Shown here in pieces: positions 7,000-14,819 of a stretch of 64,000 nucleotides of DNA. A program made the position numbers and the translations under genes. The notes below the pieces were generated by a model. That model had not been told where the DNA came from. It worked only from the letters and a program-made list of their open reading frames with translations, and ran no database searches. How positions within the stretch are numbered: the stretch's first letter is position 1; the number at the start of each line of letters is the position of its first letter. Source of the stretch: Bacillota bacterium (GTDB lineage: Bacteria > Bacillota > Negativicutes > Sporomusales > CTSoil-080); NCBI GenBank assembly GCA_017889635.1, contig JAGGAC010000019.1, forward strand, positions 1-64,000, written 5' to 3'.

Positions 7000-7809
7000 A
7001 TGACGCTTGGGGAAAAATTAAATCGGTTGACTGAGCTTCTATTAGCGATGAATAGTATTGCAGTAGCATTTTCAGGCGGCGTGGATAGCACTTTTTTGGC
7101 TCGGGCGGCCCAAAGAGTACTGGGAGACCGGGTAATTTTAGTAACCGCTTCGTCGGACAGTTCATCCGAATCGGAGATTGCTGCTGCCAATGAGTTAGCA
7201 TTATTGATGGGGATTAGTCATGTTTGGCTTGCAACAGCGGAGTTTAGCAATCCGCTGTTTACCGCCAATACTGCTGAACGTTGTTATTATTGCAAACGGG
7301 ATAGATTTGGTGCACTTATAGCTTGGGCAAAAGAAAACGGTTACGCTTGGGTGGTTGAAGGAAGTAATGTTGATGATACCGCGGATTATCGGCCAGGAAT
7401 GCGGGCGGTTAAGGAATTGAGTGGGATAAAGAGTCCCTTGCTTGAGGTCGGCTTTACAAAGCAGGAAATAAGAAATTTATCGCAGGAGTGGGGGTTGCCT
7501 ACCTGGAACAAACCTAGTGCTGCTTGTCTTGTTTCGCGGTTGGCTTATGGAATAAGGATTACTCCTGAAGTCATGCACCAGGTAGATTTAGCTGAATCGC
7601 TAATACGGCAGTTTTGCCAAGGTCAAGTTCGCGTTCGCCATCATGGCAGTATTGCCAGGGTGGAGGTTTCGCCAGCCGAATTTCCAAAAATATTTCAGTC
7701 CCAAGCGGCAGAAGTTATTGTTAATGGTTTGAAAAAAATAGGTTTTACTTATGTAACAATTGATTTGTTGGGCTATAGTACCGGAAGTATGAATGCCGAG
7801 CTATTGTAG
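7000..7809 (+). CDS. larE: LarE, ATP-dependent sulfur transferase for the nickel-pincer cofactor
   Basis: LarE activates the carboxylates of the LarB product with ATP and gives sulfur to make the thiocarboxylates of the nickel-pincer nucleotide. The 269 residues open with a PP-loop (SGGVDS at 25-30) and carry CYYCK at 95-99. AACLVSR places a cysteine at residue 176, the position at which Lactiplantibacillus LarE sacrifices its own sulfur; this suggests the single-turnover sacrificial type, although a [4Fe-4S] type cannot be excluded by eye. ATG 7000 has GGAGGG 8 bases upstream. larB follows after 11 bases. No larA (racemase) lies in the window, so the enzyme using the cofactor is encoded elsewhere. 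Confidence 0.92.
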   Translation: MTLGEKLNRLTELLLAMNSIAVAFSGGVDSTFLARAAQRVLGDRVILVTASSDSSSESEIAAANELALLMGISHVWLATAEFSNPLFTANTAERCYYCKRDRFGALIAWAKENGYAWVVEGSNVDDTADYRPGMRAVKELSGIKSPLLEVGFTKQEIRNLSQEWGLPTWNKPSAACLVSRLAYGIRITPEVMHQVDLAESLIRQFCQGQVRVRHHGSIARVEVSPAEFPKIFQSQAAEVIVNGLKKIGFTYVTIDLLGYSTGSMNAELL

Positions 7810-7820
7810 AGGTGTAGAAA

Positions 7821-8573
7821 ATGGATGATAGAAATATGATGGCGCTCTTAGAACGGTTTCAAGGCGGCAAGATTTCTATGGAAGAGGTATTAGAACAATT
7901 AAAAAAATGGCCGTTCGAGGATTTAAATTATGCAAAAATTGATCACCACCGTGCGCTGCGGCAGGGGTTTCCTGAGGTAGTATTCGCCCAAGGCAAGACG
8001 GTTAAGCAAGTTGCTGAAATTATGGAGCATTTGGCGGCATGTAACCGTAATGTGCTGGCAAGCCGTGCAACCTGTGAAATGTTCACGGCAGTGAAAGCAC
8101 TCGTACCTGACGCAGAATTTCATGAGCTTGCTAGAATGATTGTAGTGCGGCGGGAGGCAAGTGTCGTTGACGAAGCGAGAGTTATTTTAGTGATTACCGC
8201 TGGTACCAGCGATATTCCGGTAGCGGAAGAGGCTGCCATTACCGCTGAAGTTATGGGTAATAAGGTTACCCGGGTTTTTGATGTCGGGGTAGCTGGTATT
8301 CACCGCTTGTTTGCCCAGCGCCAAATTATTGAAGCAGCCAATGTGATTATTGTTGTTGCCGGAATGGAAGGGGCTTTGGCCAGCGTGGTCGGTGGAATGG
8401 TGGACAAGCCGGTGATTGCTGTTCCAACAAGTGTGGGGTATGGAGCGAGTTTCGGCGGAATAGCTGCGCTTCTTGCGATGTTGAATAGTTGTGCTGCAGG
8501 GGTTGCGGTTGTTAATATCGATAATGGCTTTGGCGCAGGCCGAATGGCAAGTATAATTAATAGTATGAGGTGA
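7821..8573 (+). CDS. larB: LarB, pyridinium-3,5-biscarboxylic acid mononucleotide synthase
   Basis: LarB carboxylates and hydrolyses nicotinic acid adenine dinucleotide, the first committed step of nickel-pincer synthesis. The C-terminal half is a PurE-like fold: VILVITAGTSDIPVAEEAA, then GMEGALASVVGG and PVIAVPTSVGYGASFGG, which are the LarB hallmark segments. The 250-residue length is normal. The N-terminal 100 residues contain DHHRALRQGFPEVVFAQGKT, also typical. The gene sits 11 bases after larE and abuts larC, as expected for one transcript. Confidence 0.93.
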   Translation: MDDRNMMALLERFQGGKISMEEVLEQLKKWPFEDLNYAKIDHHRALRQGFPEVVFAQGKTVKQVAEIMEHLAACNRNVLASRATCEMFTAVKALVPDAEFHELARMIVVRREASVVDEARVILVITAGTSDIPVAEEAAITAEVMGNKVTRVFDVGVAGIHRLFAQRQIIEAANVIIVVAGMEGALASVVGGMVDKPVIAVPTSVGYGASFGGIAALLAMLNSCAAGVAVVNIDNGFGAGRMASIINSMR

Positions 8574-8578
8574 TTGCT

Positions 8579-9757
8579 GTGCAAACGTTATATCTGGATT
8601 GTTTTTCCGGGATTAGCGGCAACATGTTCTTGGGGGCAATGCTTGATTTAGGAGTTAGCGAGGAATGGCTTCGGCTGGAACTTGGAAAGTTGCCGCTAAA
8701 TGGCTATGAATTACATATTAGTAAGGTGATAAAAGCCGGGATTAATGCTATATATGTCGATGTAAAGATTGTAGAGCACCATCACCATCGCTTTTTGGCT
8801 GATATCAACAAAATAATTGATGACGCGCCGCTTAGTGCTGTGGTAAAGGATAATAGCAAAAAGGTTTTTCGGCGATTAGCCGAGGCAGAAGCTAAGGTGC
8901 ATTCTGTGGATATTGACAGTATTCATTTTCATGAGGTGGGGGCTGTTGACGCTATTATTGATATTGTTGGCGCTGCTATTTGTCTTGAGTATCTGGGGAT
9001 TGAGCGTATTTATGTCTCAAAACTGCAAACTGGAACTGGCTTTGTAAAGTGCAGTCACGGAACTATGCCTGTGCCGGCCCCGGCTACAGCCGAACTGCTC
9101 AAAGGCATTCCATATTATACAGGCGATATTGCCCAAGAATTGGTAACGCCTACAGGCGCAGCGCTAATCGCTGCTCTTAGCCAAGGTAATGGTTGTATGC
9201 CAACGGGATTTATCAGTCAAAGAATTGGCTATGGCGCAGGGACCTGGGAGCTAGTCATTCCTAATGTTCTTCGGGCGATGATGGGAGAAATGGGCTATGA
9301 TTCCGCTGACGAAGAACTGTTGGTAGTGGAGGCTAATATTGATGATCTTAATCCGCAAATTTATCCTTATGCAATAGAAAAACTGATGGCTACAGGGGCA
9401 ATTGATGTCTGGCTGACGCCGATAGTTATGAAGAAGGGGCGACCGGCGGTTACTCTGTCTGTTCTAGTTAGTGCCGTGGTTAAGGATAAAATTGTTTCAT
9501 TGCTTCTGGCGGAGACTACGACAATTGGTGTTCGCTGTTATTCTGTAGATCGGGTTGTTGCTGACCGAAATTTCGTTGATGTTGAAACGGCATGGGGGAC
9601 GGTGCGGGCTAAGGTAAGTTCATATCAGGGCCGGGTTTGTAATATTGCCCCAGAATATGAAGATTGCCGTCAACTTGCTGAAGTGACAAGCCAGCCACTG
9701 AAAGTTATCTGTCAGGACGCGCTTACTAAGGCCTGGAGTTTATATGGGCAAGATTAA
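8579..9757 (+). CDS. larC: LarC, nickel insertion enzyme of the pincer cofactor
   Basis: LarC is a CTP-dependent nickel cyclometallase that puts nickel into the pincer nucleotide. The 392-residue protein carries the N-terminal signature LYLDCFSGISGNMFLGAML, a histidine-rich stretch (VEHHHHRF) and the C-terminal domain in one frame. In Lactiplantibacillus, larC is split and joined by a programmed frameshift; no shift is needed here. The usual GISGDM reads GISGNM. GTG 8579 is preferred because GAGGTG (8567-8572) lies 6 bases upstream; a GTG at 8570 overlapping the larB stop is the alternative. Confidence 0.92.
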   Translation: MQTLYLDCFSGISGNMFLGAMLDLGVSEEWLRLELGKLPLNGYELHISKVIKAGINAIYVDVKIVEHHHHRFLADINKIIDDAPLSAVVKDNSKKVFRRLAEAEAKVHSVDIDSIHFHEVGAVDAIIDIVGAAICLEYLGIERIYVSKLQTGTGFVKCSHGTMPVPAPATAELLKGIPYYTGDIAQELVTPTGAALIAALSQGNGCMPTGFISQRIGYGAGTWELVIPNVLRAMMGEMGYDSADEELLVVEANIDDLNPQIYPYAIEKLMATGAIDVWLTPIVMKKGRPAVTLSVLVSAVVKDKIVSLLLAETTTIGVRCYSVDRVVADRNFVDVETAWGTVRAKVSSYQGRVCNIAPEYEDCRQLAEVTSQPLKVICQDALTKAWSLYGQD

Positions 9758-9803
9758 TTCTTAACTTAATTTCATATGGGGTTATAGAGATTAGCTTTAG
9801 CAG

Positions 9804-9830
9804 GTATTTAGACAAAATTTGTCTAAATAC
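9804..9830. promoter_or_regulatory. Perfect 27-nt palindrome upstream of queC
   Basis: Two 13-nt arms (GTATTTAGACAAA and TTTGTCTAAATAC) meet around a single A at 9817. There is no T run on either side, so it looks more like a dimeric repressor operator than a terminator. A TATAAT at 9877-9882 lies about 50 bases further on, without a good -35. A preQ1 riboswitch was looked for in this leader and not found. Confidence 0.5.
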
Positions 9831-9913
9831 AACAAACGTGGCAATTGTGGAAGCATACTTCCAACCGTAAAATCCGTATAATATGGATACGATAGAAATA
9901 AGGGGTGTTTACT

Positions 9914-10585
9914 ATGAAAGCTGTTGTACTACTTTCCGGCGGGCTTGACTCAACTGTTTGCATGGCGGTAGCTCGCGATGCGGGGTTCGAGCTATGGCCG
10001 GTGAGTTTTGACTATAACCAGCGCCATAGCAGAGAACTAGAATCAGCATGTCGAGTTGCTGAGCATTTTGGCGTAAAGCGGCATCTTGTAATAAAAACTA
10101 ATATGGATTCAATTGGTGGCAGTGCGCTTACCGATCAGTCAATTGCTGTGCCTGAAGGAGAGGTTGCCAGAACGGATATTCCTCCAACTTATGTACCAGC
10201 TCGAAACCTGATTTTTTTGAGCTATGCTTTAGGGTATGCTGAAGTAGTTGGTGCTGACAAAATTTTTATTGGGGTTAACTCGCTTGATTATAGCGGTTAT
10301 CCCGACTGCCGCCCGGAGTTTATTGGCCTTTTTCAGCAATTGGCTAATTATAGTACCAAAGCAGCAGTTCAGGACGGAAGAAGCATTGTTGTTGAAACAC
10401 CACTTATTAATTTGACTAAGAAAGATATTGTTTTATTAGGTACCAAACTACAAGCACCGCTTTTTTTGACACAGAGTTGCTATGTTGGCGGTGAGAAGGC
10501 TTGCGGTAAATGTGATAGCTGCCTTCTGCGGCTGAAGGGTTTTTCCGAGGCTAAACTAATTGATCCTATTGAATATCAGGGCTAA
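9914..10585 (+). CDS. queC: QueC, 7-cyano-7-deazaguanine synthase
   Basis: Converts 7-carboxy-7-deazaguanine to preQ0 with ATP and ammonia, a step of queuosine synthesis. The 223 residues open with a PP-loop (SGGLDS at 8-13). Zinc cysteines are at about 189, 197, 200 and 203 (CYVGGEKACGKCDSC). YVPARNLIFLS and GVNSLDYSGYPDCRPEF are QueC hallmarks. ATG 9914 has AGGGG (9901-9905) upstream; GTG 9905 lies inside that site. folE2 follows after 49 bases, so the pair makes the first and last enzymes of preQ0 synthesis; queD and queE are not in the window. GluQ, which modifies queuosine tRNA, is at 55815. Confidence 0.95.
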   Translation: MKAVVLLSGGLDSTVCMAVARDAGFELWPVSFDYNQRHSRELESACRVAEHFGVKRHLVIKTNMDSIGGSALTDQSIAVPEGEVARTDIPPTYVPARNLIFLSYALGYAEVVGADKIFIGVNSLDYSGYPDCRPEFIGLFQQLANYSTKAAVQDGRSIVVETPLINLTKKDIVLLGTKLQAPLFLTQSCYVGGEKACGKCDSCLLRLKGFSEAKLIDPIEYQG

Positions 10586-10634
10586 TTTTTTGAGGGGCGG
10601 TCACCGATTTGCCTGCTCACTGGAGGTAGATATA

Positions 10635-11423
10635 ATGAAAGATGTGCAAAATTTGGCAGACGAACGGGGCATAGCCATTCAAAAAGTAGGGGTGAGCGAT
10701 GTTCATTTGCCGTTTCTTATAAAAACAAAGGCTGGTGACTTTCAGTCGGTGCTGGCTAATATCAGGCTTGTTGTCGATTTACCGGAAGAGTACAAGGGAA
10801 CACACATGAGCCGATTTATCGATATTTTGAACGAGTGGCGACAGCAGCCGATTTCTTTTAAAGAAATGGCGTTGATTTTGGGAGACATCATAAAGCGGTT
10901 AGCGGCTAAAAGCGCTAATATTGATGTATCTTTTAAGTATTTCATTGAAAAGGAGGCTCCGGTCAGTGGCATGAAAAGTTTGCTTGACTACGATTGCCAG
11001 TTTTCCGGCAGCCTGGTTGACGGGGAAGAACTGGACTTTACTTTAGGGGTAACTGTTCCGTTTACTTCAGTCTGCCCGTGTAGTAAAGAAATTTCTGTTT
11101 ATGGCGCTCATAATCAGCGAGGGCTAATGAGAGTAAAAGTAAAACATCGGCCAGGTAAATTTATTTGGATCGAGGACCTTGTCAGAAAAATGGAAACTCA
11201 GGGGAGTGCTCCAGTATATTCGCTTTTAAAGCGCGAAGATGAGAAATATCTTACAGAGACAGCCTACGAGAACCCAAAGTTTGTTGAAGATGTGCTTAGG
11301 GATTTGGTTCTGATGCTGCGGGGACTCAAGGGTGTGACTTGGTTTGAAGTCGAGTGCGAGAATTATGAATCGATACATAACCATAGTGCGTATGCCGCTC
11401 ATGTAGAGTTAATTGAATCATGA
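10635..11423 (+). CDS. folE2: FolE2, GTP cyclohydrolase IB
   Basis: Converts GTP to 7,8-dihydroneopterin triphosphate for folate and queuosine synthesis, using the metal-flexible type IB fold (COG1469) instead of zinc-dependent FolE. The 262-residue length and the segments VSDVHLPF, GTHMSRF and VCPCSKEISVYGAHNQRG fit; the cysteines in CPCSKE include the metal ligand. ATG 10635 has GGAGG at 10622-10626; an open frame continues upstream to 10560 but lacks a ribosome site. Pairing with queC suggests the product mainly feeds queuosine. FolE2 is often used where zinc is scarce. Confidence 0.93.
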   Translation: MKDVQNLADERGIAIQKVGVSDVHLPFLIKTKAGDFQSVLANIRLVVDLPEEYKGTHMSRFIDILNEWRQQPISFKEMALILGDIIKRLAAKSANIDVSFKYFIEKEAPVSGMKSLLDYDCQFSGSLVDGEELDFTLGVTVPFTSVCPCSKEISVYGAHNQRGLMRVKVKHRPGKFIWIEDLVRKMETQGSAPVYSLLKREDEKYLTETAYENPKFVEDVLRDLVLMLRGLKGVTWFEVECENYESIHNHSAYAAHVELIES

Positions 11424-11504
11424 TAAATTTGGTATGAAAAATATTATGTCCGGAATATAACTTATGATAGTAATCACAAAACGGCGGTAATGAGGTTAGG
11501 TACA

Positions 11505-13460
11505 ATGAACTGGAAGGATTTCATCGCTGAGAGCCAAGAACTGAAAGGGTGGCTGCAGGCGCAGGGGTTTAACCATACCGATTTAATCTTGTTGCGAGTA
11601 GTTATTTTCATTTTTCGCGGATATTTGGCGCCGGAGGAGATTATCCAAAAGTCGCTTGCTGCTTCTTCGCTGCTTGCAGCTATTGACGGAAAAATTGAGG
11701 CCGATTTTAAATGTGATATTCCTGATGCGATATATAATATTGTGGCCAGGTGGCGGTGTGTAGTACCTTGTGACGCCTGGTTTTTAGGCGAAATGTATGA
11801 GAAAATGGCGGAGAACCCAAGAGCACAAGGGTTATTTTATACCGCTCCCGAGATTATTGAATATATTTTGGACAATACCGTTGTGCATGCCGATATTGTC
11901 AGTAAACCTGCTATAAAGATTCTTGATCCGGCCTGTGGCTGCGGTAATTTTTTACTTAAAGCTTATGACTGCTTATGGGTTAAATACACTGGTAAGCGTG
12001 CTGAGTTGATCGCTAAATATCCTGATCAGGATTGGTCAGATGACGGTATTCATCGGCATATTGTTAGCCAAAATTTATGGGGGGCCGACATTGATCGTGT
12101 TGCCGCTGAAGTAGCGTCTGCAGCTATATTATTAAAGCGGCCAACTGCGAGTTTATTCCTCAAGCCGAATGTGCTTGTATGTGATAGTTTGCGTTTGGAA
12201 CAGGATATCGATCGGACTTTTTGGGCGGCAAAATATGATTATGTTATTGGTAATCCACCATATCTTTCTTTTGGCCTACGTGGCGCTAAAAAGATTGATG
12301 CTGAATATGCTGTATATTTGAGACAGGCCTTTCCTGCTTCGGCTGAGTATAAGTTGAGTTATTATGTCTTATTTATGGAGCGGGGTATCCGAATGCTTTG
12401 CCAGGGAGGAAAGTTGGGATTTATCGTGCCTGACAGCTTTTTGTTGGGTCGCTATTATTCGAAGATCAGACGGTACATTTTAGAAAATACTACTATTGAG
12501 AAGATCACTCACATAGTTGCGCCAGTATTTAAGAAGGCATCGGTTGGCAGGTCGGTTATTTGTATTTTGACCAAGGAGAGCGATGTTGACGTAAGGGCAA
12601 AGCAAGAGCTAACTGTTCATCAAGTCGAAACAAGGCTAGATTTGAGCAGGGTTAACAAAGGTTGTTGTTATGGGCAGAGTTATTTTATAGGGCTTCCATA
12701 TAATCGGTTTCGGCTTTTTACTGATTTGACGATTAAAAAGTTGATTGATAAAATAGATGCTAAGAGTAGCTATCTGGGAGAATTTTCTTCCGGCCATAGC
12801 GGTATTCGATCTTTGTCAAAACAAATTGATGTTATCGCCACAGCCCCAGAAGGAAAGAACTGGCAGCGTGGGCTTATATCCGGCAGTCAGGTGGAGCGTT
12901 ATGGACTAATTTATAAAGGCCATTGGATAAATATTGATCCAAGCACTTTATATAAAGGTGGTTGGGATGACGCCGTGGTTAAAGAACGGAAAATATTGGT
13001 GAGGCAAACCGGCTTTTCGTTGACGGCCTGTATTGATGATCAGGGATATTATCATTTGAATAATTTACATAGCTTCGTTTTAAAGAGCGACAGTAAAGTT
13101 TGTCTAGATTATTTATTATTGCTACTAAATTCACGGTTAATGTCTTTTTATTACCATGCTGTTTCAATGGAATACGGTCGGGCTATGGCCCAGACTGATA
13201 TTGATACCCTTGAACTTTTGCCTGTGTTGCTTGATGATAATATCAACCAACAAGCTGCGAGTCTGGTAAGTATTATGCAAAATATGGTCAAGCGTCGAAT
13301 CGCCGGAGAAGAAGGCATAAGTGGCAAGATTATTGCTTTGGATGACCTTTTTAATCAACTTTTTTACCGTGTTTATGGTATCGCGGATGACGAAATTCGA
13401 CAAATTGAAAGTTACGAAGCTAGGCTTATTGCTGGCCGACGGCGTCATAAGGGGCGTTAA
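11505..13460 (+). CDS. Orphan N6-adenine DNA methyltransferase, CamA-like / Eco57I class
   Basis: Predicted S-adenosylmethionine-dependent adenine methyltransferase, about 651 residues. GLFYTAPEIIEYIL, the SAM-binding motif I (DPACGCGNFL, about 141-150) and the catalytic NPPY (250-253, in YVIGNPPYLS) are all present; the C-terminal 350 residues would hold the target-recognition domain. GIHRHIV followed by GADID resembles, from memory, the same region of CamA of Clostridioides difficile, an orphan enzyme linked to sporulation. No restriction nuclease or specificity subunit is adjacent. ATG 11505 has GAGG 9 bases upstream; ATG 11490 is the alternative. A bifunctional Eco57I-type enzyme is less likely because no nuclease domain fits. 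Confidence 0.82.
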   Translation: MNWKDFIAESQELKGWLQAQGFNHTDLILLRVVIFIFRGYLAPEEIIQKSLAASSLLAAIDGKIEADFKCDIPDAIYNIVARWRCVVPCDAWFLGEMYEKMAENPRAQGLFYTAPEIIEYILDNTVVHADIVSKPAIKILDPACGCGNFLLKAYDCLWVKYTGKRAELIAKYPDQDWSDDGIHRHIVSQNLWGADIDRVAAEVASAAILLKRPTASLFLKPNVLVCDSLRLEQDIDRTFWAAKYDYVIGNPPYLSFGLRGAKKIDAEYAVYLRQAFPASAEYKLSYYVLFMERGIRMLCQGGKLGFIVPDSFLLGRYYSKIRRYILENTTIEKITHIVAPVFKKASVGRSVICILTKESDVDVRAKQELTVHQVETRLDLSRVNKGCCYGQSYFIGLPYNRFRLFTDLTIKKLIDKIDAKSSYLGEFSSGHSGIRSLSKQIDVIATAPEGKNWQRGLISGSQVERYGLIYKGHWINIDPSTLYKGGWDDAVVKERKILVRQTGFSLTACIDDQGYYHLNNLHSFVLKSDSKVCLDYLLLLLNSRLMSFYYHAVSMEYGRAMAQTDIDTLELLPVLLDDNINQQAASLVSIMQNMVKRRIAGEEGISGKIIALDDLFNQLFYRVYGIADDEIRQIESYEARLIAGRRRHKGR

Positions 13461-13553: not shown

Positions 13554-13814
13554 TTACTTGCGATTATTTTTGCTTGAAGTTTGTGCGCTTTTTCCACTTG
13601 CCTGACTTGCGGTATCTTTTTGGGTATCGTAGTCGTTGTTTGCGTCATATTTTGCGGTTAGGGTGCTGTTTGCCATTTCGCTGACGCTGCTTGTGGCTCC
13701 ACTGGAACTTCCACCAGCGGCGGACGGTGTTTTAGAGGAGTAGTCGTTGTTTGCGTCTTGGGTGGCTGTAAGAGTACCATACTGAGCTTTAGATTGCTGA
13801 TTTTTTTTATCCAA
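13554..13814 (-). CDS. Small Asn/Ser-rich protein resembling gamma-type spore protein
   Basis: Eighty-six residues, hydrophilic, rich in S, A, N, T, D and K, with no cysteine, signal or membrane segment. It contains two copies of a motif: YGTLTATQDANNDYSSKT (near residue 11) and STLTAKYDANNDYDTQKDT (about 37 residues later). The pattern Q-x-Q/Y-GT-x-x-A-T/S resembles the repeats of Bacillus SspE (gamma-type small acid-soluble spore protein), an amino-acid store used at germination; this likeness is judged from memory. The start is TTG 13814 behind AAGGAGG, 8 bases upstream. It is divergent from the deacetylase gene. Another low-complexity protein remains possible. Confidence 0.5.
   Translation of the reverse strand: MDKKNQQSKAQYGTLTATQDANNDYSSKTPSAAGGSSSGATSSVSEMANSTLTAKYDANNDYDTQKDTASQASGKSAQTSSKNNRK
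13629..13757. repeat. 18-nt direct repeat encoding DANNDY
   Basis: The same 18 bases (GTAGTCGTTGTTTGCGTC on the plus strand) occur at 13629-13646 and 13740-13757, 111 bases apart. On the minus strand they encode the core of the two protein repeats of the spore-protein-like gene, so this is internal duplication of the gene. Confidence 0.8.
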
Positions 13815-13964
13815 GAACAAAACCTCCTTAAATACTATGTGAATCCGGTTTTATTTTTAGATGTTAGTGCAAAAGTGATACCTGGAAAATTGCTGCAAAA
13901 AATATAAACAACTTGTAGCGGTAATTATATTAATGCAGTTATTTTTATTGCGAGGGCTGACGCT

Positions 13965-14819
13965 ATGAAAAGATTAATTATCAATGCGGATGACTTTGGT
14001 CTTCATCCTGCGGTCAACCAGGGAATTATTGAAGGATACCAAGCTGGTTGTGTCACAAGTACGACTATTATGGCATGCGGCAAGGCTTTCGCTGCGGCGG
14101 CCGAGCAGGCACTTGGGCAGCCGGGGCTTGGTGTTGGAGTTCATTTAACACTGGTGGGAGAAAAACCAGTAACTGATGCCGGGAATGTTCAATCATTGGT
14201 GGATAGTGAAGGGCAGTTTCCGTCAAGTTATCCGCAATTTTTGAGCCGCTTTTTTCAGCGCAAGATAAAGTTAGATGAGGTTTACTGCGAATTAAGATCC
14301 CAGGTTGTAAAGGCCGCGGCTAGTGGCCTGGCGTTGACTCACCTGGATAGTCATCAGCATTTGCATGTATTGCCTGGAATTATTGATATTGTGCTTAAAA
14401 TCGCCAGCGAGTTTTCCATTAAAGCCCTAAGGATTCCAGCCGAGCCATTTTTATTTACTGGTGGATACCCTGTGGCAATAGGCAGGGTGATCGGACGTTC
14501 AGGTTTGTCGACACTTGCTGTATTAGCGCGGCGTAAAGCAAAACGCCAGGGGTTAAAGGTGCCTGATTGCTTCTATGGCATGTTGGCCGGAGGTAATTTA
14601 GAAGAAAAGTACTTGCTTAATATAGTGGACAGGTTACCAGATGGCGTTAGTGAAATTATGATGCATCCTGGCGGAGACGATGCCGCTATTAGAGAACTTT
14701 ATGACTGGCGGTTAAGCTGGCAGGCTGAACTAGCAGCCCTGAAAAGTGCTGTGGTGCGTCGTCATCTGGTTGAAAGGGATATTAAATTAATGTCATTTAA
14801 GGAGTTGGCGGATGGGTAA
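13965..14819 (+). CDS. YdjC/ChbG-family sugar deacetylase
   Basis: Metal-dependent carbohydrate deacetylase of the YdjC family. The 284 residues start with INADDFGLHPAVNQGI (metal-binding DD) and contain LTHLDSHQHLHVLPG (metal-binding histidines), plus EIMMHPGGDD near the end. The family includes ChbG (chitooligosaccharides) and HpnK (hopanoid sugars). Its place ahead of a flippase-like protein, an epimerase and ArnT-like transferases favours a glycolipid substrate. It overlaps the next gene by 8 bases, so it is the first gene of that operon. It has no signal peptide, so it would act in the cytoplasm. A second family member, at 51564, sits in a salvage operon. Confidence 0.85.
   Translation: MKRLIINADDFGLHPAVNQGIIEGYQAGCVTSTTIMACGKAFAAAAEQALGQPGLGVGVHLTLVGEKPVTDAGNVQSLVDSEGQFPSSYPQFLSRFFQRKIKLDEVYCELRSQVVKAAASGLALTHLDSHQHLHVLPGIIDIVLKIASEFSIKALRIPAEPFLFTGGYPVAIGRVIGRSGLSTLAVLARRKAKRQGLKVPDCFYGMLAGGNLEEKYLLNIVDRLPDGVSEIMMHPGGDDAAIRELYDWRLSWQAELAALKSAVVRRHLVERDIKLMSFKELADG

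Follow-up and report, generated by a model that had tools for sequence, protein, structure and literature searches.

An orphan adenine methyltransferase family of spore-forming Negativicutes that resembles CamA in fold but not in its target-reading residues

CamA, an adenine DNA methyltransferase of C. difficile, is the one well-studied example of an enzyme whose DNA methylation guides the formation of endospores. It acts at spoIIE, via a site of methylation adjacent to a predicted Spo0A box (PMC13395437); the residues with which it contacts its target, CAAAAA, have been listed, and outside C. difficile it is said to be rare (PMC8187626). More generally, conserved orphan methyltransferases tend to be associated with promoter sites whose methylation is incomplete (PMC4752239). 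A preliminary description of the DNA analyzed here (the window, a 64,000-nucleotide stretch from a bacterium of the Negativicutes) had proposed an orphan adenine methyltransferase with CamA-like features in a spore-forming diderm. The reading that we favor, with reasonable rather than strong confidence, is that the gene encodes a conserved orphan epigenetic methyltransferase with a fixed target other than CAAAAA, which is kept in spore formers and plausibly acts on sporulation-stage genes among others. The existence of a separate orphan family at one locus, in numerous spore-forming Firmicutes with an outer membrane, would reveal whether sporulation came under epigenetic control on more than one occasion. 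The carriers are mostly environmental bacteria, which can be handled safely.

The methyltransferase gene and its closest solved relatives

The gene (11505..13460, + strand) encodes an orphan gamma-class N6-adenine DNA methyltransferase of 651 amino acids. Its frame is open and uninterrupted from 11490 (ORF 11490-13460, +), and 11505 is the correct start, the conserved MNWK found there also opening most syntenic relatives. The protein begins with a helical extension (aa 1-94; 11505..11786, +) that evolves fast (dN/dS 0.30-0.50) and is modeled with low confidence. The catalytic domain follows (approximately aa 95-390; 11787..12674, +) and contains the SAM-binding motif I, DPACGCGN (aa 141-148; 11925..11948, +), and the catalytic motif IV, NPPY (aa 250-253; 12252..12263, +), both located by alignment and read directly in the sequence; the two are invariant or nearly so across the alignment of relatives. 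The C-terminal part is a TaqI_C-type target-recognition domain (approximately aa 391-651; 12675..13457, +). Pfam matches were obtained to Eco57I (1.1e-25), N6_Mtase (5.6e-18) and TaqI_C (7.6e-18), and the features that define gamma-class m6A methyltransferases, namely a motif I of the form (S/A)xGxG, NPPY and a C-terminal recognition domain, are all present. The protein is presumably an active enzyme. The genome holds one full-length copy, a second weak match being a different frame of 1037 aa.

A nuclease domain was sought with Pfam and by Foldseek comparison of the AlphaFold model, and none was found by either route; this agrees with the preliminary description, which had recognized an adenine methyltransferase from its SAM and NPPY motifs and had named a nuclease domain in a predicted structure as evidence against its proposal. 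The model (pLDDT 83, pTM 0.83) was built from a 40-row alignment. When it was searched against the PDB, CamA chains occupied the top 33 places (E 1.8e-36 to 3.6e-32; TM by target 0.74-0.78 over approximately 600 columns), with BrxX, M.BseCI and M.TaqI ranking after them. CamA was also the best PDB match by sequence (E 1.5e-40 over aa 95-387), followed by BrxX-type enzymes at approximately 2e-10. In a defense library the closest models were those of Type II methyltransferases; an identity as BREX PglX/BrxX was rejected, the best score being 96.8 bits against a model cut-off of 500.

The preliminary description had based its likeness to CamA on two motifs. Both matches, CGCGNFLL and IHRHI...GADID, are literally true, but the second (aa 183-197; 12051..12095, +) is not diagnostic: the strict HRHI...GADID pattern occurs in only 3 of 18 rows of the CamA clade, and yet is found in a 1068-aa enzyme of fusion size.

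Inheritance, gene neighborhood and the link to sporulation

Among 380 genomes of the class, 34 contain a match at E < 1e-20, and 31 of these matches belong to the same clade as the window protein (the window clade). Within the order, 23 of 28 genomes carry a member of the clade; the five that do not comprise two incomplete drafts (72% and 58%), one genome that is 87% complete and two from family f2, which have only a distant homologue. Pairs of close relatives give dN/dS values of 0.11-0.21 for the whole gene and 0.10-0.27 for the recognition domain, and, contig ends apart, no broken copy was seen among the relatives. No close relative was found in phage, plasmid or viral-contig collections, in 382 Clostridia-like genomes or in the sampled other classes of the phylum. 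A more distant homologue (26% identity) is carried by large (approximately 130 kb) Clostridioides phages and plasmids (H3-H5, H20-H22).

The window gene lies directly after queC (9905..10585, +) and folE2, encoding GTP cyclohydrolase (10560..11423, +), and upstream of a YdjC-family gene (13965..14819, +), all of which are conserved neighbors. The genes larE, larB and larC (nickel pincer cofactor) and queC and folE2 (queuosine precursor) are consecutive at 7000-11423, an order common to many families. In 18 of 19 syntenic loci, drawn from eight families of this and other orders, the methyltransferase gene comes immediately after folE2, and in most cases it is preceded by queC and the lar genes and followed by YdjC and a lysylphosphatidylglycerol-synthase-like gene; where neighbors have been inserted, they are a PLP aminotransferase or a small repeat gene. 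As the preliminary description had stated, there is no restriction partner: no restriction gene adjoins the methyltransferase gene in the window or in the inspected loci of its relatives. The gene is found in most genomes of the order, with no linked nuclease at any inspected locus. In contrast to typical restriction-modification genes, it resides on the chromosome and is inherited vertically, and the clade constitutes an intact, conserved orphan family of the gamma class, which is CamA-like in its fold and not in its target-reading residues.

Family f7 (L053-L059, L064) has its copy at another locus, and there the N-terminal extension is absent. In five of the eight f7 loci the methyltransferase gene directly follows yabG, which belongs to a sporulation protease family (PF05582, E 3.5e-114 in L055), and in two more it lies within a few kilobases of it; a CAP-domain gene and SPOCS/SipL-domain genes follow.

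The host was described beforehand as a spore-forming diderm, and this holds at the level of genes, as the genome encodes Spo0A, SpoIIE and LpxC. The class as sampled combines sporulating families with small non-sporulating families that have an outer membrane, a mix that points to the Negativicutes. With Spo0A called above its curated cut-off, 55 of the 380 class genomes are positive; the window clade is present in 30 of these and in 1 of the 325 others. The lone carrier lacking Spo0A, G002, is a 65%-complete draft from a family that is Spo0A-positive. For the 55 genomes placed in an rpoB tree, the gene occurs in 26 of 44 with Spo0A and in 0 of 11 without it (Fisher 3.5e-4). Because the loss of Spo0A lies so deep in the tree, however, a phylogeny-aware test finds a single independent contrast on supported branches and hence has no power, so common descent explains the co-occurrence equally well. 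About half of the Spo0A-positive families of the class (e.g., f9, f11, f12 and f19) are without the gene, which is therefore dispensable for sporulation as such.

A small gene that converges on the methyltransferase gene (13554..13820, - strand) encodes an 88-aa protein in which TLTAxxDANNDY occurs twice. It faces the methyltransferase gene in the window and in several families. A search of 60 genomes located relatives in 38, all of them Spo0A-positive except the incomplete G002, and in none of the non-sporulators; the gene often stands beside the methyltransferase gene, and is also present in sporulators that have no methyltransferase. The protein matches no family model in Pfam or NCBIfam, and its assignment to the known small acid-soluble spore proteins was dropped on that ground; the earlier remark that it resembles a spore protein is borne out by its distribution, and it may be a new spore protein. 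Upstream of the repeat gene, f3 relatives have a GTATT-N17-(C/A)ATACTA stretch that resembles a sigma-G-type promoter and is not kept in the window copy.

Conserved Spo0A-like boxes also occur at the spoIIE promoter of relatives of the window genome. In the upstream regions of spoIIE (L179-L208), the Spo0A-like boxes TGTCGG(A/T)TTTTTT...CAGACAAA are strongly conserved class-wide, as is a -10 element, TGTAAAAT. A methylation motif was sought in the spoIIE upstream regions of 30 relatives, and nothing was tied to the presence of the methyltransferase.

The distribution of the gene and two of its neighborhoods are suggestive of a role for the methylation in sporulation, which is plausible although we would not wager on it, and which is the least certain part of the favored explanation. 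A conserved orphan methyltransferase kept by descent for housekeeping, in replication timing, mismatch repair or general transcription, has not far short of an even chance of being the better account: its neighbors queC, folE2 and the lar genes are metabolic, it is missing from about half of the families that sporulate, and the co-occurrence test is without power. Set against this are the facts that no lineage that has lost Spo0A retains the gene and that the f7 copy sits in a yabG/SPOCS neighborhood; the latter, together with the small repeat gene confined to sporulators, adds weight to the sporulation link. An epigenetic methyltransferase that would have a regulatory role, plausibly with sporulation-stage genes among its targets, continues to be favored. 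If it acts in this way, spore-forming Negativicutes may possess a second, independent methylation input to sporulation, comprising a class-wide methyltransferase with a non-CamA target that places heritable m6A at sporulation promoters, a proposal that we advance tentatively.

It is improbable that the enzyme instead protects the DNA from foreign restriction enzymes, or is the modification half of a restriction-modification system with a nuclease encoded elsewhere. Its Pfam families are those of type IIG enzymes, the nearest defense-library models are of Type II, distant Type II pairs exist (PMC4752239), and a restriction enzyme that cuts at its target might be encoded far from the gene; nonetheless, both a nuclease domain and a nuclease neighbor are absent, no close relative was found on mobile elements, and the locus is fixed and the recognition-domain residues are uniform across a class.

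Target-reading residues and phylogeny

The CamA residues listed in PMC8187626 were compared between the window clade and 23 Clostridial CamA-type proteins that are 35-89% identical to CamA over the methyltransferase domain; those considered were H171, K172, Q346, I349, R425, Q438, W439, R441, Y455, K456, S472, A473 and Y521 (CamA numbering). In all 23 Clostridial enzymes H171, K172, Q346, I349, R425, W439, R441, K456, S472, A473 and Y521 are invariant, and Q438 and Y455 are nearly so. None of them is retained throughout the window clade: only a lysine aligns in the window protein, at CamA 172, and this is not conserved among its relatives. The clade has other residues at these positions, which are themselves nearly uniform (S/T, R, W, Q, T, L, N, G, M/L, D), and a gap at the segment that holds R425-W439. 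Two alignment methods agree on this loss; the alignment of the recognition domain to CamA rests on approximately 20% identity and is imperfect at such a distance, but the missing R425-W439 segment and a different NPPY loop are independent of its fine detail.

The replacement of CamA's contact residues by others that are uniform in the clade implies a target sequence that is different but shared, and from the sequence comparison the window clade very probably marks a DNA site other than CAAAAA. It would thus combine the chemistry and fold of CamA with a single target that differs from that of CamA. Literature searches found no methylome of any member of this group.

In the Clostridia-like class, 54 of 391 sampled genomes have a match to the CamA type at E < 1e-20, approximately 47 of them with frames of 550-700 aa, and 23 were aligned. 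As CamA-type target-reading residues are spread through the sampled Clostridia, the mark that CamA makes may also be of wider occurrence. The same class also contains a separate clade of single-chain methyltransferases of approximately 560 aa that have NPPW instead of NPPY (L266, L267, L270 and L271).

Trees built from 55-65 proteins resolved three well-marked groups: the window clade, consisting of the syntenic and f7 proteins (100/100), the Clostridial CamA clade (100/100) and the type IIG fusions. Those comparators that were tested as type IIG bear an HSDR_N nuclease domain and are recognized by REase_MTase_IIG models. In the first tree the CamA clade and the Negativicutes rows were joined against the fusions (95/98), but this sister grouping was lost on wider sampling, in which Clostridial homologues retrieved by a search with the window protein were added, and an AU test of a joint CamA and window clade neither supported nor rejected it (p-AU 0.187). 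CamA is accordingly not claimed as the sister clade. The preliminary description had staked its proposal on phylogeny, a grouping with type II restriction-modification fusions counting against it; the family forms a clade of its own, and the trees do not settle the deep order of CamA, the fusions and the window clade. Its term CamA-like stands insofar as CamA is the closest solved homologue by sequence and by fold, and fails insofar as orthology was meant, since the enzyme falls outside the CamA clade and the CAAAAA-reading residues are absent.

That the protein is a true CamA orthologue, with CAAAAA as its methylation target and the same promoting effect on sporulation that CamA has in C. difficile, is very improbable: although CamA is its top match by sequence and fold, the catalytic domains are similar, the host is a spore former and a joint clade is not rejected, Q346, R425, Q438, W439, Y455, K456, S472, A473 and Y521 have each been either replaced or lost, the R425-W439 segment is missing, the two clades are separate at 100/100, and the 23 Clostridial enzymes retain nearly all of the contact residues down to 35% identity with CamA.

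Proposed mechanism and comparison with known systems

In the favored explanation, the protein would act alone, with no paired nuclease, as a DNA N6-adenine methyltransferase of the Eco57I/TaqI (gamma) class. SAM would be bound through motif I, and the adenine flipped into the NPPY pocket and methylated there. The TaqI_C-type domain would read one fixed, probably asymmetric sequence other than CAAAAA. Vertical descent in the spore-forming families of the class would keep the enzyme as the source of an epigenetic mark, and the m6A may alter the binding of regulators at promoters, plausibly including those of sporulation-stage genes.

Among the known systems, the conserved orphan families (Dam, CcrM and those of PMC4752239) share with the window clade conservation at the level of a class or family without a nuclease, but belong to different sequence families. 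M.TaqI and M.BseCI have the gamma-class fold and a TaqI-type recognition domain; they are, however, restriction-modification enzymes with palindromic sites, and score lower by both fold and sequence. Type IIG fusions (Eco57I-like; REase_MTase_IIG in PADLOC) have the same methyltransferase and TaqI_C Pfam domains and are 25-28% identical to the window protein over approximately 540 aa, whereas those tested are 900-1050 aa long and bear an N-terminal HSDR_N nuclease (PF04313) that the window protein does not have. CamA (CD2758; PDB 7LNI, 7RFK, 8CXZ) is likewise an orphan gamma-class m6A methyltransferase of a spore former, with a methyltransferase domain and a C-terminal recognition domain, motif I, NPPY and a fold that matches over the whole length. 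It differs in that overall identity is approximately 20%, that the window enzyme has the additional 94-aa N-terminus and a clade of its own, and that the target-reading residues, common to a broad Clostridial clade, are not those of the window clade. The family therefore probably works like CamA without being CamA.
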